Notes under the pieces: generated by a model | What the model saw: only the letters and a program-made list of their open reading frames with translations | Told to the model about the DNA's origin: nothing | Database searches by the model: none | DNA from: a virus | Direction: 5' to 3' (one strand) | Virus record (IMG/VR): IMGVR_UViG_3300050015_000917 | Location: 1-64,000 of that record | Length of the DNA stretch: 64,000 nt | Part shown: in pieces, positions 5,826-60,907 of the stretch | Position numbering within the stretch: the stretch's first letter is position 1 | How the letters are laid out: each line of letters begins with the position of its first letter | Translations under genes and position numbers: made by a program

Positions 5826-5840
5826 ATTTTATTTTATATT

Positions 5841-8854: not shown

Positions 8855-10219
8855 TTATACTAAATTAACATTTTTTAATTTCATCATTGGGGCTTGATAA
8901 GTACTAGTAGTGTATAAAAAAGCATTACCCATATAGATAGTACTTCCATCAACTAACATACACTGTCCTTGACCATCGTGTCCTCCTGCCCAAGTATATC
9001 CTGGTGAACCCGGGACATTTTGCCAATTCATAGGAGCAATAAAGATTGGTCCTTTTGAATTAATTGACCATACTTGTGTATTTTCATCAAAATCAAGCAA
9101 TGCATGTGCTCTATCTCCATATCCTACGCCAGCTTTGTAATCATAAGTTTCTGTACCAAATAAGCCAAATACCTTTCCATTTATTTTATGAATAGTTGGC
9201 TGTTCAGTTGATAGATCCCAACAAACTCCAGCTGGCGAATGAACTGGATCAGCTGCATAAACAATCATTTGATAATCAGTATATGGCCCACCAATGCCTG
9301 CCGTAGATTTAGCTGCTTTGATATTTCTATAAGGAAGTGAGGTTGATATATCCTCATATAACATATGCCATTCGCTACCTATTTGAACGATACCTCCAGG
9401 AAGCGAATTATCTTTTATCATTCCAGTCATAGATAGGTTGGAAACATCTTTATCAAAAAATAAAATTCTTGATTCTGCTTTACCAGTATCGCTATTAACA
9501 TATTGAAGTGTAGTAAAGTAGCTACTATCAATTTGCCCTATATCTCCTGCTGCATAAACACTCAAACAATTTGCACCCAGCTGTGCTTTTGTAATCCAAG
9601 GACCTCCATTATTTTGAATTGTCCAATTTATCATGTCTAGAGATGCTGCTAATCCTATTTGATTATTAACGCCTGTTTGATATCCGTAAAATAGCCATTT
9701 ATAAGTACTGCCATCTTTGAACATACCAGAACCTCCTGTATAGGTTCCTCCCCAGCCGTTTAAATCTGTATATTTAATAGAGCCTTTAATTAGCTGATTT
9801 CCCATAAACTCATAATTAAGAAAAGGATTATATAAAGCAACTTTTGTGCCAACTGGAAAACGAGTAGAACTATCTGCAATAATCACGTTTTTTGCAATGG
9901 TATTTATTGACGTGCAAAAAACCGGATATTCCAAAAGCCCAGTTGTTGTTGCAACTACAACCCAAGAAGATGGATCATTAAATTCAGAATATGCAGGTAG
10001 ATTTCCTATATTTAAAACCCATGCTCCAGCTCCTCCGGTAATACTATCTACATTCAAATTTGTAGAAAGTGCATTACCTATAGCATTATCCATTTCCTGA
10101 TTACGAATAACAGATAATTTAAATGATAAATCATATGACGCTATAGGTACAGGTACCTCATAAAAACAATATTCATTTTTACGCTGAATAAATTTTCCAT
10201 TATGAGTTAGATATTGCAT
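8855..10219 (-). CDS. Beta-propeller protein, GH43/GH117-like, candidate depolymerase
   Basis: 454 residues. After ~130 N-terminal residues, the body (from about residue 145) has the periodic pattern of a five-bladed beta-propeller glycosidase: MFKDGSTYKWLFYGYQTG, ASLDMINWTI, GIVQIGSEWHMLYED, YRNIKAAKS, KINGKVFGLFGTETYDY and GGHDGQGQCMLVDGSTIYM. This resembles glycoside hydrolase families 43, 32 and 117. It is the first gene of the minus-strand adhesion operon, so degradation of or binding to host surface polysaccharide is plausible. Catalytic acids cannot be assigned with certainty by eye. It lacks the fibre repeats of its neighbours. Confidence 0.55.
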   Translation of the reverse strand: MQYLTHNGKFIQRKNEYCFYEVPVPIASYDLSFKLSVIRNQEMDNAIGNALSTNLNVDSITGGAGAWVLNIGNLPAYSEFNDPSSWVVVATTTGLLEYPVFCTSINTIAKNVIIADSSTRFPVGTKVALYNPFLNYEFMGNQLIKGSIKYTDLNGWGGTYTGGSGMFKDGSTYKWLFYGYQTGVNNQIGLAASLDMINWTIQNNGGPWITKAQLGANCLSVYAAGDIGQIDSSYFTTLQYVNSDTGKAESRILFFDKDVSNLSMTGMIKDNSLPGGIVQIGSEWHMLYEDISTSLPYRNIKAAKSTAGIGGPYTDYQMIVYAADPVHSPAGVCWDLSTEQPTIHKINGKVFGLFGTETYDYKAGVGYGDRAHALLDFDENTQVWSINSKGPIFIAPMNWQNVPGSPGYTWAGGHDGQGQCMLVDGSTIYMGNAFLYTTSTYQAPMMKLKNVNLV

Positions 10220-11564: not shown

Positions 11565-11600
11565 AAGGAGAAGAAAAATTTAAGCTTCTCTTTTTTTTTG
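11565..11600 (+). terminator. Rho-independent terminator after S1-like gene
   Basis: GGAGAAG (11567-11573) pairs with CTTCTC (11585-11590), directly followed by nine T residues (11591-11599). The A-tract before the stem can extend the pairing. It ends the single-gene S1 unit. Confidence 0.85.
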
Positions 11601-11632
11601 CGGATAAATAAATAAAATAGTTGTGAAAGATA

Positions 11633-13060
11633 ATGAATAACGATATTTTATATAATCACACTTTTGATTACAGCATTCAAGAGGTTTTTAATAGTAGCTG
11701 GGTAGGTTTTGTATTTGAATTCTATAGTACTCAAGAAACTCCATTTATGGCTGAAGATCTTTCAAAGATTTGTGGTAAAACTGTTGCTGTTACTTCTGAA
11801 AAAATGATACCCACTTGGAATAATCCAGTTCTTTTAAAAGAATATGAAGGAAAAAATCCTAAATATAAACTTACGACTTCTCCTCAGGACTTTCTAAGTG
11901 TAGGTCCTATGCTTTTTGGAATTCTCGAATGGATTGATCAAAAAGCGAAAACTAACAAGAGCACAGGTTTACAAGTTAGTTTATCTTTTAATGGCCCTAT
12001 CCAGACTTTAAATACAATTTCTAATATGGATCCCACAAAACTGGTTCTTAAAATGGATGAAAATTATTTATTCCAGAGATTTCCAGAAAGAAAAAATTCT
12101 CCATATTCTGTAAGTGTAAAGAGCCTTTTGCTTACAAACGAATTCTTTTCTACTCCTGAAGCTATTGGTGCATTTAAGACTTATTTCTTACATCCATCAG
12201 CTCCTTATTATGGAATAGATTTTACGGATCAACCTATAGGGGAACTTAAATTTAATTATATTGGTGGTAAGAATTATGGCAAAAATCACAAAGCAATAAC
12301 AGAAGCTCTTCATTATTATATTTTATCTACTTATCAAACTCTTAATATTCCAGGTTATACTGCTGAGATGGGGGTTAGCCTTGAAAAAATATTTGAAAAT
12401 TATCATATTATTCGAAGAATTTATTATGACCCTAAATGGTTCTTAGAAAATATTAAGGATATTCAAGTTGGAATAGATCTTAAAAGAGATGCTAGAATTG
12501 TAGAATCCTTCTGGCCAAAATTAAGAGATCCTTTAACTCGCCTCATGCTTGAAAGCGGATTCACAAAGGGAAAATTTAATTGGGATACTCAGGAAGGAAG
12601 ATTCCAGATAAAGGAAGCGAGATTACTTGGTGGAAAAATTACAAGTTTAGATCTTGTTGATTGCGAAGTACAAGGAATCGTAGAAGACTGCGGATTATGG
12701 AATACTCGAATAAAAAATTCTCGTATCATTTTCTCTACTCTGGTTGAAAAAAATAAAATTGAGGATAGTATTCTTGAAAGAGTAAGAGCTGATAGAAACA
12801 ACTCTATTAGTAAAAGCTGGATTTATAATACCGGTGAAGTAATTAATTGCAAAGTTAATGAAAGTATTATAAAAGATGCTGCTATTGGAAAAGAAGCTAC
12901 CCTTGATGAAGAGTGTACAGTTATTGATCCAAAACACAAAAAGGTAAATTTGCCTAAGCCCGTTTCTTCACCAGAAATAAGAGATTATAAATGGCTTGCT
13001 GGATTAAATAAGGATCGTAAGGATAAGGGATTTCAAAATGAATTTAAACATAAATGGTAA
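11633..13060 (+). CDS. Amidoligase-like protein with C-terminal beta-helix-like segment
   Basis: 475 residues. Near the N-terminus WVGFVFEFYS resembles the GxExEF motif of the putative amidoligase (COOH-NH2 ligase) family found in phages, and KLTTSPQDF ... GPMLFGILEWI ... GLQVSLSF resembles that family's second conserved block. Residues ~335-440 form short repeats (CEVQGIVEDCGLWNTRIKNS, IIKDAAIG) like a beta-helix. Amidoligases form amide or peptide-like bonds and in phages have been suggested to modify virion or cell-wall targets. The assignment is by motif only and the substrate is unknown. It is followed after six bases by 13067 and preceded by an A-rich leader (GATAAATAAATAAAATAG). Confidence 0.45.
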   Translation: MNNDILYNHTFDYSIQEVFNSSWVGFVFEFYSTQETPFMAEDLSKICGKTVAVTSEKMIPTWNNPVLLKEYEGKNPKYKLTTSPQDFLSVGPMLFGILEWIDQKAKTNKSTGLQVSLSFNGPIQTLNTISNMDPTKLVLKMDENYLFQRFPERKNSPYSVSVKSLLLTNEFFSTPEAIGAFKTYFLHPSAPYYGIDFTDQPIGELKFNYIGGKNYGKNHKAITEALHYYILSTYQTLNIPGYTAEMGVSLEKIFENYHIIRRIYYDPKWFLENIKDIQVGIDLKRDARIVESFWPKLRDPLTRLMLESGFTKGKFNWDTQEGRFQIKEARLLGGKITSLDLVDCEVQGIVEDCGLWNTRIKNSRIIFSTLVEKNKIEDSILERVRADRNNSISKSWIYNTGEVINCKVNESIIKDAAIGKEATLDEECTVIDPKHKKVNLPKPVSSPEIRDYKWLAGLNKDRKDKGFQNEFKHKW

Positions 13061-13066
13061 TAAATT

Positions 13067-13801
13067 ATGATTAAAAGTGCATTTGTTCAAAGAATTGTTG
13101 GAGAACTAACAGCTTCGGGAGCTCTTCCATATAGTCCTCCCCCACAAGAATTCGAACGTATTGTAGATAAGGAAATGAGATTTCTTTATCGAGAATATAG
13201 AGAGCTTCTCTATGATAAAATTTATATTATTAATAGAAGATATTATCAAACTCAAGCTTGGAGAGATAGTAGAACCTTTCAGATGAATAACTGTACGGAA
13301 GGGATAAAACAGGTTAAGGAAATGACTGGGGGAAGTAGAGTATTTGGTATCAACGACCCAGATTTAAATTTTGATAGATTAATGGCTTCAGATTTATATT
13401 TAACTCCATTATCTTCAGATCAAATTACCTATCGTACAATTCAGTGGAGTTTTTGGGATCTTGCAAGAGCATTTAATCTTGTGGATATTAATCATGACTT
13501 TAATCCAAATACCCATAGGCTTTCAATTACTGGTCGTACTCCAATTCAGAGTTTATTTGTTTTAGCTTTGGATCAGATCCCTTTAGAGGATGCTTTCGAG
13601 GATACAATTGTTTTAGATTGGATGGTTGCTAAAAGTAAACTTTCGATGGCTCGTATTCTCGGAACTTTTAATTATCAACTTCTTGGCAATATTCAGATTA
13701 ATTATGATAATTTAAGAGTAGAAGGAACTTCAGAAATCGAAGCATTAAAGGAAAAAATTGCGTCGGACAACCCCCCAGATTGGTTCCTCATGTTTCCATA
13801 A
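13067..13801 (+). CDS. Putative virion connector/neck protein
   Basis: 244 residues without a family I can name with certainty. It has helical N-terminal segments (FERIVDKEMRFLYREYRELL) and a C-terminal part containing DWMVAKSKLSMARILGTF and YQLLGNIQINYDNL, a pattern I associate with small phage head-tail or tail-completion proteins. It follows the amidoligase-like gene by six bases and precedes the homing endonuclease. Function is uncertain. Confidence 0.35.
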   Translation: MIKSAFVQRIVGELTASGALPYSPPPQEFERIVDKEMRFLYREYRELLYDKIYIINRRYYQTQAWRDSRTFQMNNCTEGIKQVKEMTGGSRVFGINDPDLNFDRLMASDLYLTPLSSDQITYRTIQWSFWDLARAFNLVDINHDFNPNTHRLSITGRTPIQSLFVLALDQIPLEDAFEDTIVLDWMVAKSKLSMARILGTFNYQLLGNIQINYDNLRVEGTSEIEALKEKIASDNPPDWFLMFP

Positions 13802-16936: not shown

Positions 16937-18694
16937 ATGAAAGAATTTTATCCTAAATTAAGAAATTTTATATCTGAAGCAAAGGGAGGATTAGAAATTC
17001 CGAAATCCGCTAAAATAGAGGATTATGGATACGTGTTTGCTAAAGATGGAACTAAAATAGACATGAGACATTTAAAGACCGAAATGGATAGTGCTAAAAC
17101 TGCTATCGTTTCTCAAAGCCAATTATTTGCTCCTTATGTTCATAAGTTTACTCCAATTTATACATGGTTAGTTCCTACTATGGCAACTGATGGAACTCGT
17201 CTCTTTGTTAATCCTAGCTTTGCTAATAAATTAAGCTGGAATCAAATAATATTTGTTCTTGTTCATGAGATTATGCATTGCGTACTTCTTCATATGGATA
17301 GAATGAAAACTAGAAATGCTATAGTTCAAACTTCAGACGGCAAACCTGCTTCTCTTTTTAATATTGCAGGGGATTATGAAATAAATGATATTATCGTTGA
17401 TACTTTAAATGATTTTGATGAAGAATTTGTTAAAAAACTTGGAGGTCTTTATGATGCTAAGTGGCTTAATATACCCGTTGAAGTTATTTATGACGAACTT
17501 AAGAAAACAATTCCCAAAATGCCACCTAATCCAGCTTCAAAGAATAATCAAGGACAAAATCAAGGAGAAGGAGGATCTGGCGGGGGAGCTGGAGGTCAAG
17601 GACAACCAGGGGGAAAAGGAAAAGGGGGAGGAAAACAGCCTTTAGCGGTTGGTTCCAAAGTTAAAATTAAAGCTACAGGTCAAAAGGGAATTGTTACAGC
17701 TGTTAACGCAGATGGAACTTTTGAAGTAAATCCCCTTAATGAAGCTTTTATTTATCCTAGATTAATTAATGAAGGATATAAACAAGAAGAATTAATTTCT
17801 ATTAGTGATGGGGGAGATGGTGAAGGAGAAGGTGAAGGAGGAGAAGGCGGAGGTGAAGGAGATAATAGTGGCGGTGTAGGGGGAGCTGGTGATGAAGGAT
17901 ATGATGAAACATTAGATCAAACTGGAGAATTTGATCCTGCAGGAACTGGCGGCATTATTTCTCCTGAAATGGGAAAGAAAATTGCTAAAGCTAGCGGATA
18001 CGGTGAAGGAGAAATGGGTCCTGATGAAAATCCAACCGATAAATGGAGAGTTGAAGGATCTAAGATGCTTGACCGTGCTGAAAAGGGACAAAAAGGAAGA
18101 GGGCGGGGAAAGGGAGAATCCCTTGTAAAAGCTCTTTATCGTCTCCATAGAGGGGATGTTAACTGGAAAAATCTTTTTAGAAGATATGTTGCGACAGCAC
18201 TTTCCCCTGAGGTTTATCAAAAAATTGGAAATAAAAAACATCTAGGCGGAGAATATCTTCGTTATGGAGAAAAGCATAAGCAAGATGCTATGGAAAATAT
18301 AGTCGTCTTAGTTGACGTTTCCGGATCTATGGGTCAAGAAGCTCTTAATAAAATTATTAATGAAATAAATCAAATTATCTTTTCAAAAAGAGTAAACAAA
18401 ATAACTATTGCTTTCTTTGATGATGGGGTTGACGATAAGAGTGTTCAAACTATTAAAAGAATGGGAAAACCTTATATTCCTAAAGGAATTAGCGGGGGAG
18501 GGGGAACAGACTTCCAGAAAGCTCTTGATTGGGTTCATGAACATTTAAAAGACCGAGTTTCCCTATTGGTATTTATGACTGATGGGGGTGCTCCTAATCC
18601 AAAGAAACCACCTTATGCTCATAAATTTATTTGGATAATTTATGGTAATCCAGGATGGAAACAGCCATTTGGTAAACAAATTAATTTAGGATAA
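16937..18694 (+). CDS. VWA-domain protein with HExxH metallopeptidase-like N-terminal domain
   Basis: 585 residues. The N-terminus MKEFYPKLRNFISEA resembles the T4 internal-protein targeting peptide. Residues ~100-120 contain the zinc-peptidase motif VHEIMHCVLLH (H110, E111, H114), as in the DUF2201 metallopeptidase-like domain. A glycine-rich linker holds a KOW-like piece (VGSKVKIKATGQKGIVTAV, ~235-260). The C-terminal third is a VWA domain with the MIDAS residues DVSGS (~460), GGTD and FMTDGG. DUF2201/VWA proteins normally work with MoxR AAA+ ATPases. One is encoded nearby at 20356-21975, with two ankyrin genes between. The target is unknown. Confidence 0.75.
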   Translation: MKEFYPKLRNFISEAKGGLEIPKSAKIEDYGYVFAKDGTKIDMRHLKTEMDSAKTAIVSQSQLFAPYVHKFTPIYTWLVPTMATDGTRLFVNPSFANKLSWNQIIFVLVHEIMHCVLLHMDRMKTRNAIVQTSDGKPASLFNIAGDYEINDIIVDTLNDFDEEFVKKLGGLYDAKWLNIPVEVIYDELKKTIPKMPPNPASKNNQGQNQGEGGSGGGAGGQGQPGGKGKGGGKQPLAVGSKVKIKATGQKGIVTAVNADGTFEVNPLNEAFIYPRLINEGYKQEELISISDGGDGEGEGEGGEGGGEGDNSGGVGGAGDEGYDETLDQTGEFDPAGTGGIISPEMGKKIAKASGYGEGEMGPDENPTDKWRVEGSKMLDRAEKGQKGRGRGKGESLVKALYRLHRGDVNWKNLFRRYVATALSPEVYQKIGNKKHLGGEYLRYGEKHKQDAMENIVVLVDVSGSMGQEALNKIINEINQIIFSKRVNKITIAFFDDGVDDKSVQTIKRMGKPYIPKGISGGGGTDFQKALDWVHEHLKDRVSLLVFMTDGGAPNPKKPPYAHKFIWIIYGNPGWKQPFGKQINLG

Positions 18695-19620
18695 TGATTG
18701 TTAGGGAAAGTATTAATTTCACTCGAAGCGGAAATCCTATTGAAACAATGAGAATAGGAAAAGCAGGACTCTTTCTTCAAATTATAGAGAAAATAAGGAA
18801 TGAATTTGCTTGGGATCCGGTAAAAGATAAAGATTTAATCCCACAATCTCTATCTCAGTTAACTGAAAATAATTTATATGGAATTGATACAAAGAAATTT
18901 CTAAGATTATATGCTGAAGAGCATAAAAATAAAAATTCTGTTATTCGTGAAATTCTAAAAGAAATTATGGATAAAGTTTTAACATTTAATCCAAATAAAT
19001 TAGAGCATCACGCTGGATTCTGGGTAAACTTATTTTTTGTTTTAGGAAGAGCAGAAGATATATGGAGTAATCCAAAATGGATAAACGATTTTACCTTTAA
19101 TGAATTTCGTCAGTATGATTCAAAGAGAACACTTGAAGAAACAAAAAAACTTGGAGCAAATAAAGCTTTTCTTTTAGGATCCACTCGAGGGGAAAGAGAA
19201 TTAGAAATATGGGGGATTGAAAATGGAGCAACAAACTTGAATCATACTTATAACGAACCTATTCAAAATGCTTGTCAACAAGGAGATGCAGAATTGGTAA
19301 AATTATTATTAGCAAGCCCAATAGTTAACCCAGGCGATAATACAAAAAGTGGTAAAAGATATAAAAGTGACGAAACAAATTTCTGTATTAGAAGAGCAGC
19401 AAAAGAAGGGCATTTAGAGGTTGTAAAATTACTATTAAATGATAAAAGAGTAAATCCAGCAAGCAAAGCAAATTGGGCTTTAGCTGCTGCTTTGTCTAAT
19501 GAAAATATAAAAATGTGTCAATTACTTTTAACTAATCAAAGGGTTAGAGATAATATTTTTAATATGAAGGAATCTTCTATAAAAAAATTCAATAGTTACA
19601 AAGGAGCGGGGGAGTTATGA
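18694..19620 (+). CDS. Tagged ankyrin-repeat protein
   Basis: 308 residues. The tag is at residues 2-22 (IVRESINFTRSGNPIETMRI). The middle is helical and unassigned. Residues ~185-290 form ankyrin-type repeats: NEPIQNACQQGDAELVKLLL, NFCIRRAAKEGHLEVVKLLL and NWALAAALSNENIKMCQLLL, with the linkers NPGDN and VNPASK. Ankyrin repeats mediate protein-protein binding. Start overlaps the stop of the VWA gene by one base. Together with the tag this suggests a binding protein carried in the virion or attached to the VWA/MoxR machinery. Ankyrin assignment is firm; role is inference. Confidence 0.75.
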   Translation: MIVRESINFTRSGNPIETMRIGKAGLFLQIIEKIRNEFAWDPVKDKDLIPQSLSQLTENNLYGIDTKKFLRLYAEEHKNKNSVIREILKEIMDKVLTFNPNKLEHHAGFWVNLFFVLGRAEDIWSNPKWINDFTFNEFRQYDSKRTLEETKKLGANKAFLLGSTRGERELEIWGIENGATNLNHTYNEPIQNACQQGDAELVKLLLASPIVNPGDNTKSGKRYKSDETNFCIRRAAKEGHLEVVKLLLNDKRVNPASKANWALAAALSNENIKMCQLLLTNQRVRDNIFNMKESSIKKFNSYKGAGEL

Positions 19621-26308: not shown

Positions 26309-28204
26309 ATGAATATAATACGTGTAGCAAGAATTAGGCTCAGTGAACTCTATCAAGATTCAATCAATTTCATAAAACAAACATATGATGATGCTGGTCA
26401 GTATTTTACTATGGCATCCCCAATGGGGCAACTTCTTCAGGTTCTTTTGAATCTAGGAAGAGTCATTCTTTACTATGTTGAAGATTCTATTACAGAGTTA
26501 AATATTTTAACTGCTTCTAGATCCCAAAGTGTAAAAGGTCTTGCATCTTTAACAGGTCATAATTCTTCTAGAGGGGTAGCCGCACGAGGAACTCTTAGAT
26601 TATATTACAATGGAGAAAAACTCGATATTTATGGAAATACAGCAGTTATTCCTAATTATACTAGACTTACTTCTACTTTTAATGGGCTTACATATACAAT
26701 AACTCTTCCTGGAAATGAGACTCGTTTAGATTTAGGTTCAATTACGAATTATGTTGATGTAAATATAGTCCAGGGTAAATTAGAATATCAGCAAGCAACA
26801 GGAACGGGGGATGCATTGCAAAGTTTTAATTTTCAGGCTAAGAAGGGATCTATGATTGATAATTTCTTTGTAAATATTTACGTAAATGGAAAAAAATGGG
26901 CAAGCAAAGATTCAATTCTTGATATGAATTTTAGAGAAGAAAGTGTAATGGTAAAAACTGGTCAAACTGGAGGCATTGATATTTTCTTTGGCAATGGTTA
27001 TAATGGGTCAGTTCCTCCTCTTGGAGCTACTATTCTTGCCGAATATCTTTTAACGGATGGTGAAGCAGGTAATATTAGAACTGCTGAAGCCAAAACCACT
27101 ACTAATTGGAAATTTGAAGGAAAAGGATATTCTCTTAATAGCCAAGAAATCGATCTCAATAAAATACTTAGAGTAGCTATTCAAAAAGACGTTTTATTTG
27201 GAACTCAAGAAGAACCTGTTTATTTAACTCGTCTCTTAGCTCCTCATATGTCAAGAAGTTTTGTTTTAGCAAATCCAAACAATTATATCTACTTTTTAAG
27301 TAAATTAAATATGTTTACTATTGTAGATGCTATTCCGGGATTTGCAACTTTCGAAGATAAATTTACTCTCGATAAATATAATCAGGCTAAAACTACTTTT
27401 GAAAATATTCAAGAACAATATCGTACACTTTTAGCAACAGTTGGAGCTTCTTCATCTAAATCTCTTACAAAGAAAACAGAATTAGATAATGCTCAAAATC
27501 AAGTTTCCTATTGGCAAGGTCAGGTTGATGAACAGAAAAAAGATGACAATACGGTTTATCTCTATTTGGTTCCTGATGTAAATCAAAGAATCCCAGCAAA
27601 TCAGAATTATTTTTCATGTGGATTAGATTCATTTCAATTAACTAATTTGGAAAAAAGAGGAATTCTGGACTTAATCGAAGAAAGTGGTCAAAGAATTATC
27701 ACTGTAGATAATGCTATTATGACTCTTAAATATCCGAGGTTTGTTTTAAATGTTGTATTAATTATTTATGAAGGATATGAATTAAATAATATTAGGGAGG
27801 ATATAATTTCAAAAACTTCTGATTATTTCTTAAAAAATACTAGAAGAGATAGAATTCCTCAATCCGATATTGTAAGAATTATTGAACAGATTGATGGAGT
27901 AGATTCTGTCTCCGTTTGGTTTGATGCAGATAAAAATAATTTCCAAATTTATGGAAATGGATATGGAATTGATGATTACGGAGACGTTCTTCTTGAAAGA
28001 TATGTTTCAGATGCTTTTAATAATAAAGTAACTGTTAAAGATCTTTATCCTCTTATTCGTGGTGGATTTGAAAGTTCTAATGGAATTACTTATGATGACT
28101 CAGTTGCTAAAGATCGTCTTTCAACTGTGAATATTAATCTAAGAGGTATTACTCCGGTTAATTTCAATAGTAATCAAAATAAAAATATTGTATCTAGTTT
28201 ATAA
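26309..28204 (+). CDS. Baseplate wedge protein, gp6-like (baseplate J family)
   Basis: 631 residues, close to T4 gp6 (660). The N-terminal part is helical (FTMASPMGQLLQVLLNLGRV, LTASRSQSVKGLASLTGHN). The middle contains baseplate-J-like beta segments (GGIDIFFGNGYNGSVPPLGA, ILAEYLLTDGEAGN). The C-terminal domain has RDRIPQSDIVRIIEQIDGVD, typical of wedge proteins. It forms the iris-like inner ring of the baseplate in T4. It follows the gp25-like gene after 16 bases, with leader TATAAAAATAAATTATG. Confidence 0.8.
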   Translation: MNIIRVARIRLSELYQDSINFIKQTYDDAGQYFTMASPMGQLLQVLLNLGRVILYYVEDSITELNILTASRSQSVKGLASLTGHNSSRGVAARGTLRLYYNGEKLDIYGNTAVIPNYTRLTSTFNGLTYTITLPGNETRLDLGSITNYVDVNIVQGKLEYQQATGTGDALQSFNFQAKKGSMIDNFFVNIYVNGKKWASKDSILDMNFREESVMVKTGQTGGIDIFFGNGYNGSVPPLGATILAEYLLTDGEAGNIRTAEAKTTTNWKFEGKGYSLNSQEIDLNKILRVAIQKDVLFGTQEEPVYLTRLLAPHMSRSFVLANPNNYIYFLSKLNMFTIVDAIPGFATFEDKFTLDKYNQAKTTFENIQEQYRTLLATVGASSSKSLTKKTELDNAQNQVSYWQGQVDEQKKDDNTVYLYLVPDVNQRIPANQNYFSCGLDSFQLTNLEKRGILDLIEESGQRIITVDNAIMTLKYPRFVLNVVLIIYEGYELNNIREDIISKTSDYFLKNTRRDRIPQSDIVRIIEQIDGVDSVSVWFDADKNNFQIYGNGYGIDDYGDVLLERYVSDAFNNKVTVKDLYPLIRGGFESSNGITYDDSVAKDRLSTVNINLRGITPVNFNSNQNKNIVSSL

Positions 28205-28500
28205 TGGCAAATCTAACTCAAAAACAAAATGCTATAAGTAGCAAAAGTCAGAGATTTAGGGTCAGATCTTCTTATCTGAATTCAGCAAAACATCTTTCTG
28301 ATAATTATTTAAATCTTGGATATCCATATCAAGGAAAAATTTTTCAAAAGATGACTTCTCAGGAACTTTGGGCAAATCCAAGACAGAAACCTCTTTTTGC
28401 TCAACTTGAAGGAATGATCACATTTATTTTGGAACAAGTTAAGTATATTAAAAAGACTTTTTCTATAGCACATGATAAAGATAGTGTAAACGTTAATTAA
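28204..28500 (+). CDS. Small basic protein in baseplate operon
   Basis: 98 residues, basic N-terminal half (QKQNAISSKSQRFRVRSSYL). It starts with a TAATG overlap after the gp6-like gene and lies six bases before the large wedge gene, so it is probably a minor baseplate component. No family recognised. Confidence 0.5.
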   Translation: MANLTQKQNAISSKSQRFRVRSSYLNSAKHLSDNYLNLGYPYQGKIFQKMTSQELWANPRQKPLFAQLEGMITFILEQVKYIKKTFSIAHDKDSVNVN

Positions 28501-28506
28501 TAATCT

Positions 28507-31500
28507 ATGAATATTCAGAATTGGAAGATTTTTGATAAAAGTGGCTCTCTGCTTAATCTATATGCTGATGCATATTTGCCTCTTACTTTTACACCTAGTA
28601 ATCAGAATGCAACTGGCGCTTCTGGATATGCTATAACGGATCCAAGTAACTATATTATTAAGGGAATTAACGGTGTAAAAATTACAAATAGCGGTTGGGG
28701 ATATACTGGATTACAAACAGATCCTCAGATTCAATTAAATTCCTCTTTTACCGATTATACTCATATCTTATTAAGCCCCTCTGAAGTTTCTATTGGATTT
28801 AAGGATGTGTCGATTTTTAATCCCGATCCGGGCAATTCTAAAGCTATAGAAAGCGTTTTAATAACGTTAGTACCGGATGTTTCTTTCCTTTATCCTTCTA
28901 TTTCTTTCAGCTCAGCTATCTTCCTCAATCCTATTTCTCAGGGGCTTGTGGAAACTGAACACTTAACTATTATCGAAGAAACTTCTCCCGGGCTTTTTAT
29001 TAGTCCTAATGATCCGGATAATTCGATTTTGGTTTTCCGTTTTACTGATGGAGATCCTGAAATTAAATTATTTGAAATTGATGAACATGAGCAATTACTT
29101 TCTTGGTCAGATGAATTAGTTGTTGATGTATCTCGAGGAATTGTAAGTTCTGGATTAATGATTAATATCGGATTCCGCTCAGACAATGAAGGAGTTTATG
29201 AAAGAAGACTTCGAGTTTATCATCGAGTAGGAACTACAGACTATCTCATTGCAGAAATTCTTATTAATGCTGAATCTATTGGGCCTGATGAAAGATTTGA
29301 TACCCTTATAACTAATTTTGGATTACCAAGCCCAAAAGCTACTCCTATCTTATTTAAGGAAGCGGATATTAATGAAGCTCTTCCTGATTGGAAACTTCTT
29401 AATCAAAAATCAAAGCATATGATTCTGGAGCATGATAAAATCATGCCTTATATAGGAACATATAAAGCTCTTATTAATGCTATTAAATGGCTGGGGTATG
29501 ATGATATAAGTGTCAAGGAATGGTATAGAAACGTTAAAGAGAGAACAAAATTGTCTTTAACAGTTCCATATGATGCTGCAGAAAGAACAAAAACAATTCT
29601 TTATTTTAGTCCCGAAGAAAGAAGAAATCTTAAAAAATTAAATCAGCTTTCCCTGGTTTATTGTCTTACCCGAGAAACAGGAGAAATTGATGAATGGGGA
29701 AATCCATTAACTGAAGATTGTTATAGCTATAATCTAAATGAAATTCTTATTAAATTATATGCTCTTAAACAATGGCTTGAAAGATGGATTATAGGGGTAA
29801 ACGCCCGTATTACAGATATTACAGGAGAAGGTATTTATTTTGAAAGATATCAGAATTTTATTTATGCTACTCAAAATATAGGAATAGAATCAAATTATAG
29901 ACAATCTGTTTCTCCATATGTATTAGCTAAAAGTACAGAATTGGTTGCTGGGGATGCTAGCATGGCTTTAACTTTAGAAGAATTAAGATCATCTACAGTT
30001 CAAAATCTTCCTATGAGAGCAATAGATTTTATTAAATTTGCTTGGAATCCTTCTTATGGATATTTCGATATTACGGATACTTCAGCTCTTTTATCAGATT
30101 CTTCAACTATTTTTATTGGTCCATCGGCTCAATTTCCTTTAGTAGATCTTTTTGATATTCAATGGAAACTTTCTGTAGAAAAAACAGATTCTGGAGTTGT
30201 TACTAATAACTTAGTAACAAAACCATTATGGATTTATGATAATGAAATAAGATTTTTCAATGTTTTGGATACTTCTTCTCAATTTTATGATAATAGTAAT
30301 TTAAATATTTTATTAGAGAAAGCTTATTTAAAGGATGCGGATCCATCAAATGATATCTGGGAAGACTCAATTGCTTATTCCATTTATTCGGATCCTTGCA
30401 CTGGAGGATATTGGATTGATAATTCTGCAGGATTTCATGTTTGGCAATCCTTTGATTATGTAAATCTAGTTCCTGATACAAATTCAAAATTAATTTATGA
30501 ATTTGATGCTAATTATAGAGTTCCTTTATTAAGTTTTGAAAATTATAAATTTACAGATGCTTCAGATAATGTTATTTCTTTAAATAAAAAATATTTCTTA
30601 GATATTATCGATGGCAAGATTATGATGGATTCTAGTATCCTAGGAATTAAAGATTGGGTAACAGATCCAAGCACAGCCGGAATTGAAAATTTAGAAACTA
30701 CTATAAATTGGAATTATGATTCATCTTTAGGCGAGCAGAAAATTACCTTAAATGTTGTTTATAGATCTCCAAGAATGCCTCTATACATTTATGATCCTTC
30801 AGCTTATTATTGGTCACAAGGCTCGGATCCTTCTATAGCAAAGGTAGTTGATAACCAGGTTTATCTTTTTAGAGTAAATCATACTGGGGATTTTCATATT
30901 GAACTTTATGCATGGGACGGGTTTAATAACATTTTTACAAATCAAATGGAATATACTCATCCAGTTTGGACAAAATTTCCAAGGATTTATTCTTTAGTAG
31001 ATAGTTCTAATTATTTAACTTATGAAGTAAGTACTTTTATGAATTTAAATGATGTGAGCGCTCTTATTTCTGCAAATCGTTTTCCACTATTTGATAAATA
31101 TATTCCCTTACAAGGACTAAGTCTTGAATTTGATCCATCTGGAGATCCTTATATTACTATTCCTTCGATTACTTATTTTCAGGATCTTCCGGAAACAGAT
31201 TCTTTGAATAGATTTATAAACTTAACAGAAAGAGTTGTAAATATAGCAGGTTCTACTATTGAAATTGATCCGGATTATCAGAAATTTTACACTGGAGATG
31301 ATATTCAACTTGTTAAATTTGATAAGGGAAAATATCATTTAACTTTAGAAGCTAGTGCTCATATTGCATCATCTAGTTCAGTTTATCCAGGATCTGCACA
31401 ACCTACATTAGCTATTTTGGATCAGATACCTGTTGAAATTACAATAGATGCTAGTTCAGAACTTTATATTCTTAATAATACTCATAGAAATACTTCAAAT

Positions 31501-55002: not shown

Positions 55003-55446
55003 TTAAAGTTTAAAATCCTCAATTCTTTTATATTCTAATTTAGTTAATTGTTCAAAGGAAAGACCAGGATCTCCAGAAGGTAAAGTAACAGGGAAATTTA
55101 TTTCTAGTAATCTCAAGTATATAGGTTCAAAAATAAGACATTCCTGTAATGAAGAATTCCAAATAAAAAAATAATCTCCTTGAAATTTTTGAATAGATTT
55201 TAAAGATATGTAATTTTTTTTCACATCAATTAAAATCCGATCATCAAGAATAAGATCTCCTAAAATTAAATCTACAGTTGCTAGAATGTTGCCATGCCAT
55301 TTAGCAACTATCCAAAGAACAGGAGAGATAACATTTTCACATTTATATCCTTTTTCTTCAAAATACTTTTTTGTATGATCAGTAGCTTCCATTCCTCTTT
55401 GCAACCGATCTTCAAAAGACATAATAGAATTTTTATTTGCTTCCAT
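55003..55446 (-). CDS. Possible PD-(D/E)xK-fold nuclease-like protein
   Basis: 147 residues. The segment ATVDLILGDLILDDRILIDV followed by KKNYISLKSIQKFQGDYFFI resembles a PD-(D/E)xK core (D ... IDVKK). The resemblance is weak, and active-site residues cannot be fully assigned. It overlaps the asparagine synthetase gene by 14 bases. Confidence 0.35.
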   Translation of the reverse strand: MEANKNSIMSFEDRLQRGMEATDHTKKYFEEKGYKCENVISPVLWIVAKWHGNILATVDLILGDLILDDRILIDVKKNYISLKSIQKFQGDYFFIWNSSLQECLIFEPIYLRLLEINFPVTLPSGDPGLSFEQLTKLEYKRIEDFKL

Positions 55447-56791
55447 TTATTTTTTTCCAATTAATATAATTTTCGATTAATTCTCTTCTATATTTTGTTT
55501 CATTTTCTCGTATCTGACTGATTTTTAAAGGATTTTTCTTTCTTTCAATTATTTCATCCGGAATTAATCCTTTGAATTCATCTTTAAGAATCTTTTTATG
55601 AGTTCTTTCCGAATAGGGCAATTGTAAAGCTGCTCTTACAACATCGTGTCCTAAAAATGGATTCCTGCATTCAATTGTAAAATTCATACTCATACGATCG
55701 ATTCTAATCATATGATAGAAAGGAAGTTCTTGGAATACATCACTCTTTTGAGAATCATATTCACTTATTCTTCTATATCCCCCAAAGAGCTCATCTGCTC
55801 CATCGCCAGTTAAAACAATTTTATCTTTAATGTCTTTGAAAAGATAATATTGAGGAATTACTGATCCAAGGTCGATCATCGAATCATTTATATCATAAAT
55901 TCTCATTTTTTCAACTAATGAAAGTTCTTCGGGTTTAACATCAAGATAATTTATATCTAACCCCCATTTATTCTGGATTGATTGAACAAACACTCCGTCT
56001 TCAGCATTATTGATAGAATAGATATTGACATCTGCTCCAAATTTCTTTAAGAAATAAAGAATAATCATACTATCTAATCCTGCTGAAAATAATGTAGATA
56101 CTTTATATTTTTTAGTAAGTAATCTTCTTTGAACAGATTTTTCAATAAGATCATGAATGGAATCAAGAGGTACATTGCTATTCCAATCAAAATAATTTTC
56201 GATAATTCGAGGTGCTATATTTCTTCCTTTTTCCCAAATATAAATGCTGTTAGGCATTATTCTCTGAACATCTTCATAAAGAGTTCTATTATCTGTATTG
56301 TATCCCCATTTATTGACGATGCTTATGAAAATGGGATCAATGATTTTGGAATTGCTTAATCCCTTAACTTCGCTGGATACTTCTCCAGTTATCTTATTAA
56401 TATAAAGCTGTTTTTTACCAAGAGGATCTGTAAAGATAATAACTTTATTTTTTCTAACGATAACGATACTCCAGAATCCATCCCATTTGTTTATTTCTTT
56501 GAGCTTCTTTTCTATTGGTTCGTCATTATCGAAAAAATCTTGAAGATATTGGGAATCATTTTCCCATTCCTCTCCAGTGATTTCATTACAGTTAAAAATC
56601 TCCCCATTAAAAAGAAGAAATCCATCATGCAAATTAATTGGTTGAAACCATTTATCTTCTTTGAGAGTTTGAATAGGAAGTCTATGATGACCATAAACCC
56701 ATCCATCTTTTTCTATAGATGTAAATTGTATTCCTCGATGCTTTATCGAATCAATTTTGTTTCTGTCCGGACTTATAATAATCCCACACAT
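55433..56791 (-). CDS. asnB: Asparagine synthetase (glutamine-hydrolysing), AsnB-like
   Basis: 452 residues from the ATG at 56791. This start was chosen over one 45 bases upstream because it gives MCGI, placing the catalytic Cys at position 2 as required for class II glutamine amidotransferases. The N-terminal domain has YGHHRLPIQ and LFNGEIFN. The synthetase domain has STLFSAGLDS (variant PPi loop, SGGxDS) and LTGDGADELFGGY. It is shorter than E. coli AsnB (554). The enzyme makes asparagine from aspartate, glutamine and ATP. It may supply Asn, which is abundant in this phage's fibres, or act on another substrate, as AsnB-like proteins sometimes do. Confidence 0.85.
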   Translation of the reverse strand: MCGIIISPDRNKIDSIKHRGIQFTSIEKDGWVYGHHRLPIQTLKEDKWFQPINLHDGFLLFNGEIFNCNEITGEEWENDSQYLQDFFDNDEPIEKKLKEINKWDGFWSIVIVRKNKVIIFTDPLGKKQLYINKITGEVSSEVKGLSNSKIIDPIFISIVNKWGYNTDNRTLYEDVQRIMPNSIYIWEKGRNIAPRIIENYFDWNSNVPLDSIHDLIEKSVQRRLLTKKYKVSTLFSAGLDSMIILYFLKKFGADVNIYSINNAEDGVFVQSIQNKWGLDINYLDVKPEELSLVEKMRIYDINDSMIDLGSVIPQYYLFKDIKDKIVLTGDGADELFGGYRRISEYDSQKSDVFQELPFYHMIRIDRMSMNFTIECRNPFLGHDVVRAALQLPYSERTHKKILKDEFKGLIPDEIIERKKNPLKISQIRENETKYRRELIENYINWKKINGSK

Positions 56792-56792
56792 A

Positions 56793-57125
56793 TTATAAAA
56801 GTTGTTTATATATTTCTTTTTCCGTAAAAAACTCAAATTCCGAATCTACATTTCTTGTGTCAATTCTCGTATATTGTTCTGTATATTTTAAAAACGATAA
56901 GAAAGCAGAAATATTACTATCTTTTATCTTATAATCATCTTCTTTATAAGTTTCGGTATTCCAAATACACATTGTATTTTCTGTTCCTCTGAAGAAATTA
57001 GTCCATAACATTTTATCCATCTCAAATAAAAATAAATGGAATGCAACAGGTTTAGCCCAAATTCCTTGTTTGAGTTCCCTGTATCCCATTTTCAGAAGAG
57101 ATTGTTCAATCCTTTCTTTTTCCAT
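56793..57125 (-). CDS. Hypothetical protein
   Basis: 110 residues (MEKERIEQSLLKMGYRELKQ). Acidic and aromatic, no motif recognised. It ends one base before the asparagine synthetase start, supporting that start choice and suggesting co-translation. Confidence 0.4.
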   Translation of the reverse strand: MEKERIEQSLLKMGYRELKQGIWAKPVAFHLFLFEMDKMLWTNFFRGTENTMCIWNTETYKEDDYKIKDSNISAFLSFLKYTEQYTRIDTRNVDSEFEFFTEKEIYKQLL

Positions 57126-57136
57126 TTTGATTTATT

Positions 57137-58264
57137 TTAATAATTCCACTTTTTGGTTTTTTTTAAAAATTCCATAAAATCCTTTATGGCTTCATTATAA
57201 CCCTCCCTTAATCCTGCTTGATATCCAAGATCATGTAATTCGGCAATCGGAACTGATTTTTTTATAGGATTAATTTTTTTATCTAAAGGATTAATTTCTC
57301 TTATAACCTTGGGATATTCAACAGGATATCCAGGATCTAAAAAATTTCCTCTCTTTCTTAAAACGATTCCTGCTTGATAAAGAGGAATCTGAATCCCGGG
57401 AAATCTCTTAAGATAAGTATTAATGAACATAGTTGTGGGAATATGCTTATGAAGAAAGAATCCATATGGAACCATATCCGGATTATTTTCTATAACAATA
57501 TCTATAATTTCTTTATGTAAAAGATAGGGTTCTTTATTCTGAACAAGATCTTTTATAATGATAACAAAATATCCACCAGGTTTAAGAAATCTAATGGCTT
57601 TTGTATACATAGTTTTCACAAGATCATGATAGGCATTTCCCTTGGTCAAGCCTATATTATCTTCATGCATGTAATCAAAACTCTTATCTACTTTTGTGGC
57701 AAGATTTTTTCTTTCTGGTGCATCAGAGCTTTTACCTGAAATTTTCGGATAAGGAGTTCCATTAATGATAAGATCTAAGAAAGGTTCTTTGAATCCCCAT
57801 TCCTTGAAATATTCATCAAGTTTCGTAGCATCTCCTTGACGAAAATAAGAGGTTACCCCAGGTGGAACACGATTTAAATTCCATTGATTATCAATATTCT
57901 TTTGAGCAACCTCAGGATATTCAAGTTCTATTCCAATTCCATTTCTTCCATTAAGAATAGCTTCAATAATAGCTGTTCCAGTCCCTACGGTTGGATCAAA
58001 AACAAATCCCCCTTTTGGGCAAAGATTCTGAACAGCCCATTTATATCCAATAATATGACCAGCATCTAAATGATCCCCAGCTTGATCAATATAATATCCT
58101 CTACGAATACGGTTGCTATAATATTTGTCATTTTCAACATTATAAATCTCTCCCATAAAATTTTGGCAATATGGACAAGTACAATGATAATCGCTTGGAA
58201 TATTAGGTCTTGATTGAACTATATGATCAATCGGAATTAAATTTAAATGTTTTGGTTCAGCCAT
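57137..58264 (-). CDS. DNA methyltransferase (N6-adenine/N4-cytosine type)
   Basis: 375 residues. The N-terminus contains a CxxC pair (CTCPYCQNF). The AdoMet-binding motif is FDPTVGTGTAIIEAI with a following acidic residue in GIGIELEYPE. Catalytic motif IV appears as NGTPYP, a variant of the usual (D/N/S)PPY. KPGGYFVIIIKDL is the following strand. It is of the DNA MTase class seen in many phages, and may protect phage DNA or modify it epigenetically. No restriction enzyme is adjacent. Specificity cannot be read from sequence. Confidence 0.75.
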   Translation of the reverse strand: MAEPKHLNLIPIDHIVQSRPNIPSDYHCTCPYCQNFMGEIYNVENDKYYSNRIRRGYYIDQAGDHLDAGHIIGYKWAVQNLCPKGGFVFDPTVGTGTAIIEAILNGRNGIGIELEYPEVAQKNIDNQWNLNRVPPGVTSYFRQGDATKLDEYFKEWGFKEPFLDLIINGTPYPKISGKSSDAPERKNLATKVDKSFDYMHEDNIGLTKGNAYHDLVKTMYTKAIRFLKPGGYFVIIIKDLVQNKEPYLLHKEIIDIVIENNPDMVPYGFFLHKHIPTTMFINTYLKRFPGIQIPLYQAGIVLRKRGNFLDPGYPVEYPKVIREINPLDKKINPIKKSVPIAELHDLGYQAGLREGYNEAIKDFMEFLKKTKKWNY

Positions 58265-59213: not shown

Positions 59214-59972
59214 TTAAAAAGTATCGAATTTTTGTATATCTGAGTCTAACATTAGTTTTTCACCATCCCAGCAATGGAGACTTCCAAGCCAGCAAAAGAA
59301 TTCCCCCATTTTAAGCTCTTTATCAACCTGATCCCTAACATATTGGCCAAGTCTAATACTCATATACATATCATTTTTAAAATGACGACGAATATCGCAA
59401 CTTCGAATAAGATAAGTCATATTCAATTTTCCTCGTCGTATTAAAAAATGATAACCAATTGTACAGGGTAGGCGAACCCCATTTTCTGCAGAATCTTGAG
59501 GATGCCAAATAGCATAAAAAGCCTGTCTCCCCCCTGGATCATTTTTTAATCTTGTAATTAAATCATTAAAATCCCCAAAGTTATATCCCATTTTGCCAGT
59601 TCCTTTGAGAGTTTTATCTGGCCAAAATCTTTCTTGATAAGTATGAGAGAAAAAGTGTTCCCCTTCAGCTCGGAAAACCCCATCATGTTTTTCTGGAGTA
59701 TAATAAGGCCAATTTAGATATTCAACTCCAGGATTTGTTGGTTCCCCAGCAATCCTTTCTTGAAAATGATCTTCAGACCAAGGATAATCGCATTTTGTTT
59801 CTCTTTTGAGTTCATCCTGGCTTTCTGGCATTTTAGTAATTTTGAAATTATAATTAATGATTTCAAAAAGAGCGTCAGGAGGAGTGGTAGCTTGCCATTT
59901 TTCTGAAGTTACAATTTCTCCTTTGCTTTTTAAGGTCTCGAAAGCTTTTCTTAATTCATCACGTGTATTCAT
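59214..59972 (-). CDS. Thymidylate synthase / dCMP-dUMP hydroxymethylase family enzyme
   Basis: 252 residues. Family motifs: RLPCTIGYHFLIRRGKLNMT with the catalytic Cys, then YLIRSCDIRRHFKNDMYMSI, corresponding to the R-S-x-D ... N region of ThyA, plus a C-terminal GSLHCWDGEKLML. The sequence is quite divergent from ThyA, so substrate (dUMP or dCMP) and product (dTMP or a 5-hydroxymethyl nucleotide) cannot be told. It lies two bases from the kinase/UDG-like fusion gene, suggesting a joint role in pyrimidine or modified-base metabolism. Confidence 0.7.
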   Translation of the reverse strand: MNTRDELRKAFETLKSKGEIVTSEKWQATTPPDALFEIINYNFKITKMPESQDELKRETKCDYPWSEDHFQERIAGEPTNPGVEYLNWPYYTPEKHDGVFRAEGEHFFSHTYQERFWPDKTLKGTGKMGYNFGDFNDLITRLKNDPGGRQAFYAIWHPQDSAENGVRLPCTIGYHFLIRRGKLNMTYLIRSCDIRRHFKNDMYMSIRLGQYVRDQVDKELKMGEFFCWLGSLHCWDGEKLMLDSDIQKFDTF

Positions 59973-59974
59973 TC

Positions 59975-60907
59975 TTATTTTATTTCTTTTATTGGATAAT
60001 CCATAATTTCTTTTAATTGCTGAATATATTCATTATATTGAACTTTCTTAAAGCGTTTTATATAAGCAGGATGATAAATAGTTTCTCCAAAGCCAACTTG
60101 TTCTCGAACCTCTTTCCCCAAACAAATAACTTTTCGAGGTTTAATTATTTCATATTCTTCTTTTAGTGCTTTGGCATTTAATTCTCTGTTGCCTTCACAT
60201 TTATTCCAATTTGTAAAATATGGCATTTGCTTAGTAGGATAAACCCCGGCATCAAATAAGCAATGATGAAAAAATTCTGAAGATCCAGTATTACTTGAGA
60301 ATGCACGAACAAATCCTTTACCAATTGAATAATTACTTGGCATATCCCCAATAAACATAATGCATCCTTCTTCGTAATAATTTCCTGTAGAAAGAAATTT
60401 TTGAAGTCTGACAGCTTTTTCCTGTCTCATTCGATGAATATCTTCTATGACTTTAAGTATAGTATCAATATTATTTTGCTTATAGTCATAAGTAAAAACC
60501 GGAACATAAGTATCTTCCATGACAGCATCATAGAAATGGATCATTTGATCAATTTCTTCAATTTTCACATAATCATCCCCACGAACATGGATATTTTTTA
60601 ATATGGTTTCTTTGGTAGGGCGAAGGTAGAGAATAACTGGAGCAAATGGCATTAAACCTGCTTCAATAAGATATTGATGCCAAGGTTGCATTTGATCCCT
60701 TCCTTCTTTAAATTGAGGGTATACGAGCTCGCTCGTGTAATATCTTTCAAGATAAAAAGGAGCATAATGAGCTGGGGAATGAAGATAATAACTAAGCTGA
60801 TTTTGTTTAGGATAAAATGGTTTAACCACCGGAATTTGAGAATGGGACTTAATATATTCTACCAAGAAACTTTTACCTCCTCCATCTGGTCCGTCAATGC
60901 AAATCAT
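59975..60907 (-). CDS. Thymidylate-kinase-like / uracil-DNA-glycosylase-like fusion
   Basis: 310 residues, two domains. Residues 1-155 are a dNMP/thymidylate kinase-like P-loop domain: CIDGPDGGGKSFLVEYI (Walker A), APVILYLRPTKETILKNIHV (lid-like region with Arg), then MIHFYDAVMED. Residues ~178-300 are a family-4 UDG-like domain: CIMFIGDMPSNYSIGKGFVR, AFSS, then TNWNKCEGNRELNAKALKEE, PRKVICLGKEV and TIYHPAYIKRF. The motif order matches UDG superfamily members. Such a fusion beside a thymidylate-synthase-type gene suggests base modification or control of dUTP/dTTP-related nucleotides. Activity of either domain is unproven. Confidence 0.65.
   Translation of the reverse strand: MICIDGPDGGGKSFLVEYIKSHSQIPVVKPFYPKQNQLSYYLHSPAHYAPFYLERYYTSELVYPQFKEGRDQMQPWHQYLIEAGLMPFAPVILYLRPTKETILKNIHVRGDDYVKIEEIDQMIHFYDAVMEDTYVPVFTYDYKQNNIDTILKVIEDIHRMRQEKAVRLQKFLSTGNYYEEGCIMFIGDMPSNYSIGKGFVRAFSSNTGSSEFFHHCLFDAGVYPTKQMPYFTNWNKCEGNRELNAKALKEEYEIIKPRKVICLGKEVREQVGFGETIYHPAYIKRFKKVQYNEYIQQLKEIMDYPIKEIK

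Follow-up and report, generated by a model that had tools for sequence, protein, structure and literature searches.

What does a phage gain from a single protein that carries a nucleotide-kinase fold and a uracil-DNA glycosylase (UDG) fold, encoded next to a thymidylate synthase (TS)-like gene? The question arises from 64,000 nucleotides of the IMG/VR record IMGVR_UViG_3300050015_000917 (the window), in which an earlier note had read the three activities as a plausible set for making or handling a modified pyrimidine such as 5-hydroxymethyluracil (hmU). The window's virus is an uncultured tailed phage, represented by contig G000 (78,425 bases) and by the overlapping contig G001 (132,831 bases).

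Architecture of the Fusion Protein

The fusion described in the note is borne out: the window ORF is a YorR/thymidylate-kinase-like domain joined to a UDG-fold domain, and both folds could be matched within the one reading frame (Table 1). The identical protein (100%) is encoded on a second IMG/VR contig, the contigs being 99.999% identical across 68,620 bp. An AlphaFold2 model of the fusion, calculated with 24 aligned sequences, has a pLDDT of 85.8 and a pTM of 0.84, and its top three structural matches in BFVD are phage G gp315 and two other full-length phage proteins. The TS-like ORF lies downstream, its ATG separated by 2 nt from the fusion stop codon.

Table 1. Features of the kinase-UDG locus, in window coordinates
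Feature	Position	Strand	Basis or conservation
Kinase-UDG fusion gene	59975..60907	(-)	310 aa; single uninterrupted ORF
P-loop deoxynucleoside/dNMP kinase domain, fusion aa 1-165	60413..60907	(-)	YorR/TMPK fold and motifs
UDG-superfamily domain, fusion aa 175-310	59975..60385	(-)	PF03167, 1ui0 fold match, profile A5
D188 codon, motif 1 (Tth UDGa E41 position)	60344..60346	(-)	D64/E6/Q2, 72 distinct fusions listed
N233 codon, uracil-recognition Asn (Tth UDGa N80 position)	60209..60211	(-)	N70/Q2, 72 distinct fusions listed
H279 codon, leaving-group His (Tth UDGa H155 position), HPAYIKRF	60071..60073	(-)	H 72/72 fusions listed
Thymidylate-synthase-family gene, predicted dCMP 5-hydroxymethylase, 252 aa	59214..59972	(-)	PF00303 E 5.5e-9
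D201 codon of TS-like gene (cytosine-type Asp, E. coli TS position 177)	59370..59372	(-)	Alignments

The kinase half matches phrog_761 (E = 2.8e-18) and YorR (PDB ID 2axp; E = 8e-8). The YorR structures 3kb2/2axp align with it at Z 15.3 across 162-165 residues and thymidylate kinases (TMPKs) at Z 13-14 (VIA-align). Its motifs (the P-loop GPDGGGKS, ERYYTSELVY and an RGDD lid) place it among the YorR/thymidylate-kinase-like P-loop kinases, as defined by P-loop, DR..(S/G)E..Y nucleotide motif, RGDD lid and fold, and Lys-12, Arg-55 and Tyr-63 are each invariant in the 72 distinct fusions among the matches listed. Homology to T4 gp1 beyond the P-loop was looked for and not found (hhalign probability 23.9, 40 columns).

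The UDG half exceeds the Pfam cut-off for PF03167 (E = 6e-6, 26.8 versus 24.3 bits), our profile A5 matches Tth UDGa with E = 4.8e-7, and the closest fold is that of this family 4 enzyme (PDB ID 1ui0; Z 13.5, r.m.s.d. 3.2, 138 residues in VIA-align), in agreement with the kinship claimed at the outset. The sequence is divergent: in its UDG part the window protein shares only 15-28% identity with the 20 other sequences of the alignment, and the PF03167 model detects only 6 of 25 members of the fusion family at E 0.01. The comparison with curated models proposed in the note had a divided outcome, as PF03167 and YorR/TMPK-like relationships hold, but the window fusion stays far below the cut-offs for the dTMP kinase equivalog TIGR00041 (22.5 bits versus a curated 83.25) and for family 4 UDGa, TIGR00758 (14.4 versus 125.3 bits). 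By sequence inspection, the window protein contains no CxxC ahead of motif 1, and the set of four Cys ligands for a [4Fe-4S] cluster that marks family 4 UDGa was not seen.

Catalytic Residues of the UDG Half

We transferred the Tth UDGa residues Glu-41, Phe-54 and Asn-80 to Asp-188, Phe-203 and Asn-233 of the window protein through the profile alignment, and His-155 to His-279 through the HP motif. Phe-203 is Phe in 70 and Trp in 2 of the 72 distinct fusions listed; the other three positions are given in Table 1. In Tth UDGa, Asn-80 is reported to read N3 and O4 of uracil, with N80A strongly reducing activity, H155S to cost more than 3 orders of magnitude of activity, and N89A to slow the catalytic step almost six-fold (PMC5387724). 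A HPS(S/A)(L/V)(L/V)R motif is described for family 4 and UdgX (PMC10359453).

Examined in this way, as the note had suggested, the catalytic residues are partly retained: the Phe-54, Asn-80 and His-155 equivalents are kept and Glu-41 is mostly Asp, but Glu-47 is not kept, and the motif-3 loop, which carries the Asn that positions the water (Asn-89), is deleted in most members of the family, which renders catalysis in most members uncertain. Motif 1 in the fusions is replaced by GD[TKR]RN. The window protein and its phage G counterpart have an Asn in the motif-3 loop, the window protein reading KCEGNR there with Asn at the Asn-89 position.

Median dN/dS ratios are 0.104 for the kinase and 0.090 for the UDG half, from the 76 valid of 85 pairs at 72-97% identity (9 pairs were dropped, their estimate being missing, zero, or at least 2.5). 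A decaying remnant is ruled out for the UDG half by this low, kinase-like dN/dS together with the invariant catalytic His, and the note's idea that the domain may have become a synthase finds no support, given the same leaving-group His and the conserved Asn-80 equivalent. The alternative offered there, a base-flipping domain, is possible. The retained His and Asn, the low dN/dS and an Asn where the glycosylase Brig1 has Glu make the domain look selected for recognition of uracil-type bases.

Distribution among Phages

The fusion, unfamiliar to the earlier note, is not unique. A tblastn search of 50,697 phage records returned three at 80% coverage or more, two of phage G and one of Actinomycetia phage DSL-LC01, whose proteins are 23.5% (gp315) and 19.8% identical to the window fusion, respectively. 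Pfam recognizes a PF03167-type UDG domain in gp315 (E = 1.5e-12), and the UDG part of DSL-LC01 falls below the Pfam model in the same kind of search. Two profile scans of IMG/VR together with local HMMs yielded at least 125 fusion ORFs in at least 125 loci, of which at least 72 are distinct once ORFs with identical last 120 aa are merged, alongside at least 8 ORFs with the kinase alone and at least 1 with the UDG part alone. The second scan covered 80 of 169 confirmed relatives, and the true size of the family therefore exceeds these counts; most of the 72 distinct fusions share one clade, and their counts are therefore not independent events. Two loci were left out of the fusion count: L059, which is incomplete, and L056, a phage-G-like contig on which kinase and UDG occupy different frames (4873-5427 and 5465-5872) through a frameshift, an assembly error or a true split.

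The fusion genes, where annotated, carry only the label "thymidylate kinase." The PHROG of that name, phrog_761, matches 25 of 25 members of our set A2 and spans the full length of gp315. Text searches of a literature collection listed no publication describing a kinase-UDG fusion, and a scan of cellular-genome contigs returned at least 5 weak partial loci (23-156 residues matched), with no full-length fusion among the matches listed. The fusion is widespread and conserved among phages and under-described. The gp315 UDG part (L003:7995-8990) is also matched by phrog_4335 (421 aa, function unassigned) at profile positions 252-359, and a further phage protein family may hence combine a UDG-like domain with some other partner.

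The TS-like Neighbor and Its Genomic Context

The divergent TS-family gene noticed beside the fusion is confirmed by its PF00303 match (Table 1). In an alignment with T4 gp42, SPO1 gp29 and M6 gp58, its Cys-170, Thr-171 and Asp-201 match T4 gp42; the window enzyme and gp42 have Asp at position 177 and Thr at position 147 (E. coli numbering), whereas SPO1 gp29 and M6 gp58 have Asn at both. A catalytic Cys, Asp at 177 and the TS fold define it as a cytosine-type TS homolog, and the Asn-177 that characterizes dUMP hydroxymethylases of the SPO1 gp29/M6 type is replaced by Asp. An Asn-to-Asp change at position 177 is reported to be able to switch preference from dUMP to dCMP, and positions 177 and 147 to separate modified-cytosine from unmodified contigs best (PMC8670742); MilA and T4 are described as following an identical position-177 specificity rule (PMC5175136).

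A profile of 12 TS-like proteins matches the CMP hydroxymethylase MilA with E = 2.3e-48, TS with 3.3e-28, the phage dCMP hydroxylase 9iqc with 4.1e-26 and T4 dCMP hydroxymethylase with 1.8e-25, and we predict the window gene to encode a dCMP 5-hydroxymethylase. The best folds for the structural model of its product (pLDDT 73, middle part poor) are the dCMP-acting 9iqu and 9iqc (Z 19.4 and 19.1), with TSs at about 18, a near tie that leaves 5-hydroxymethyl-, 5-hydroxy- or 5-methyl-dCMP as candidate products.

A TS-like gene is present in the locus of 70 of the 72 distinct fusions listed, and 69 of these 70 fusion-linked genes, found by scans not selected on the TS gene, combine Asp-177 with Thr-147, the remaining one being gapped at both positions. 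The gene is absent from locus L127, where the contig ends just past the fusion, and from L014/L058. In all but one locus listed, the TS ORF begins at or overlaps the fusion stop, usually by 15 nt, an overlap that may be overstated as ORFs were taken from the first possible start codon; the exception is phage G, with 1.5 kb between TS gene and fusion. A dCMP deaminase is encoded in the loci of 67 of the 72 distinct fusions listed, and the window's virus has its own (G001 9643-10149). Phage G additionally encodes two T4-type DNA alpha-glucosyltransferases (PF11440, E = 1.2e-10 and 3.4e-9) within 8 kb of gp315. From Asp-177/Thr-147 in the TS genes and from these alpha-glucosyltransferases, the modified base is predicted to be a 5-substituted cytosine, most likely 5-hydroxymethylcytosine (5hmC). 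The modified-pyrimidine setting envisaged in the note is retained in this reading, and hmU gives way to a base made by a cytosine-type enzyme like T4 gp42.

Some cytosine-type phages lack a fused UDG (PMBT14, Serbin, L038 and L050), which shows that the UDG half can be dispensed with. The possibility that PMBT14 and Serbin encode a UDG separately was rejected, since the 262- and 269-aa proteins encoded between dUTPase and TS have no UDG match.

In searching the window for a known modification pathway, we located an asparagine-synthase-like protein with a glutamine amidotransferase domain (55433-56836, (-)) and, a few genes downstream of the TS-like gene, an N6/N4-type DNA methylase-like protein (57137-58264, (-)), neither of which could be tied to the fusion. 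An asparagine synthase is also listed for phage PaBG (PMC7412058). Outside the window, G001 65935-74502 (-) (about 68135-76702 on G000) encodes two GT25 proteins, a GT10 fucosyltransferase, a NodZ/FUT8-like protein and a DUF5672 protein, a cluster that could decorate modified bases or the capsid or host surface. An NAD synthase, an isochorismatase/nicotinamidase-like protein and a nicotinate phosphoribosyltransferase (G001 11571-12506, 13069-13704 and 18188-19372) possibly form a phage NAD salvage route, and a lysine-2,3-aminomutase-like radical SAM protein is found at G001 27897-29069. An ES-NFERG-DPK-AM-IG-like N-terminal motif recurs in G001 ORFs (e.g. 99557-99868, 100638-102047 and 127691-128158); a regular expression finds it in the first 70 aa of 15 of 157 ORFs, compared with 9 of 313 internal 70-aa windows, and it may serve as a tag by which virion proteins are targeted or processed.

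A Proposed Route to 5-Substituted dCTP

We propose a 5-substituted-dCTP pathway, most likely for 5-hydroxymethyl-dCTP, in a phage with modified cytosine in its DNA; in it the kinase half acts on modified dCMP and the UDG half on uracil or hmU. The fusion itself, its folds and residues, their conservation and the order of the genes are observed, whereas every reaction is one that we infer, and we regard the proposal as a whole as evenly balanced between right and wrong. Its parts differ in strength: a cytosine-modification pathway is very probable and a kinase acting on modified dCMP is probable, while activity of the UDG half on uracil-type bases is plausible and somewhat in doubt. Judged by specificity residues, fold and neighbors, the TS-like enzyme would convert dCMP to 5-hydroxymethyl-dCMP (hmdCMP). 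The kinase half would then phosphorylate hmdCMP to hmdCDP, towards 5-hydroxymethyl-dCTP, which is the job of gp1 in T4, where this protein is annotated as the dNMP kinase for the hmdCMP step. The phage dCMP deaminase could convert dCMP or hmdCMP to dUMP or hmdUMP, and the UDG half may provide quality control on such uracil or hmU by-products, excised from new DNA or hydrolyzed as mononucleotides. A precedent is the human pair of DCTD and DNPH1, in which DNPH1 removes the hmdUMP that arises from deamination of hmdCMP (PMC9142498). The retained HPxY..R motif, which resembles that of family 4 and UdgX, leans towards a DNA substrate, and the kinase partner, an enzyme of nucleotides, towards the pool.

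Alternative Readings

Deletion of the Asn-89 loop in most members and the replaced motif 1 would suit a non-catalytic UDG half that binds a uracil-type nucleotide and serves either to control the kinase or to tether it to DNA. This is possible, yet we do not favor it: a pure scaffold need not keep the His found in all fusions listed, dN/dS matches the low value of the kinase, and the window and phage G proteins have an Asn in the motif-3 loop.

A second reading, which we think unlikely, places the whole protein in the nucleotide pool, with the kinase committing modified dCMP and a retooled UDG fold hydrolyzing free hmdUMP or dUMP that the phage dCMP deaminase has produced. Such a protein would be the phage analog of human DNPH1, constructed from the fold of a repair enzyme.

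The TS-like enzyme might instead be a flavin-dependent dCMP 5-hydroxylase, its product 5-hydroxycytosine, perhaps then glycosylated, replacing 5hmC. Its top folds, titled phage HY126 dCMP hydroxylase AfhB and monooxygenase with dCMP and FAD, point that way; the near tie with TSs, the modest pLDDT of the model and the far better profile match to MilA than to 9iqc make it quite unlikely.

We consider improbable a kinase that transfers phosphate to the hydroxymethyl group of hmC within DNA, with base flipping supplied by the UDG fold, in analogy to the 5-hmU DNA kinases of M6/ViI-type phages. UDG folds do flip bases, the HPxY..R motif is kept, and the SP10 5-hmdU DNA kinase ranks 49th in a viral fold search (E = 4.4e-3). 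The kinase half has, however, the motifs of a YorR/TMPK-like nucleotide kinase, the base-reading residue is the uracil-type Asn, and M6 gp54, which we take to be the hmU DNA kinase of that phage, aligns with it across just 38 columns (probability 94.6) and is not clearly related. Hypermodification derived from hmU is described as proceeding via a 5-hmdU DNA kinase (PMC6449724).

An hmU pathway appears very improbable; in it, hmdUMP would come from the TS-like enzyme and hmdUDP from the kinase, with hmU dealt with by the UDG-like part. SPO1, an hmU phage whose gp29 is annotated as dUMP hydroxymethylase, does have a UDG domain on the N terminus of its DNA polymerase gp31 (PF03167, E = 2.3e-22, with Ser replacing the uracil-reading Asn), and the UDG part of phage G matches this domain; Asp-177/Thr-147 in place of the Asn pair of SPO1 and M6 and the T4-type hmC glucosyltransferases of phage G argue against it. 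An attack of the UDG half on host DNA through its unmodified cytosine, or on rival phages through their modified cytosine, which Brig1, a UDG-fold glycosylase excising alpha-glucosyl-hmC, might suggest, is hardly credible, as Brig1 is reported to read the base with Glu (PMC11078745) and the fusions keep the uracil-type Asn.

If the proposed 5-substituted-dCTP pathway with a uracil-directed UDG half is true, it shows how modified-cytosine phages shield their nucleotide supply from deamination errors, a problem that human cells share. The kinase-UDG fusion together with an Asp-177 TS would serve as a sequence marker for likely modified-cytosine phages in metagenomes, and it corrects a large gene group labeled only as thymidylate kinase. 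An isolate exists in phage G, a phage of Bacillus megaterium, which makes the prediction directly testable.

Comparison with Known Systems

The closest relatives of the window protein, phage G gp315 and the DSL-LC01 protein, share the kinase-UDG architecture, an Asp-177 TS-type neighbor and a nearby dCMP deaminase, and differ in their low identity and in being annotated as thymidylate kinase only. YorR of SPbeta has the same kinase fold and motifs without a UDG domain. Tth UDGa shares the fold and the Phe-54, Asn-80 and His-155 positions, with Asp conservatively replacing Glu-41, whereas the fusion UDG half has no visible four-Cys Fe-S set and no Glu-47, has mostly lost the motif-3 loop and is joined to a kinase. 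A UDG domain fused to a phage DNA-synthesis enzyme is also present in SPO1 gp31 and PaBG gp205, the partner there being a DNA polymerase, as published for PaBG (PMC7412058).

In function, T4 gp42 and gp1 carry out the two steps predicted here; gp42 has the same Asp and Thr at its specificity positions, while gp1 has no detectable kinship with the fusion kinase and no UDG domain. Human DNPH1 belongs to a different protein family from the UDG-fold half and provides a comparison by function only, in the removal of hmdUMP.
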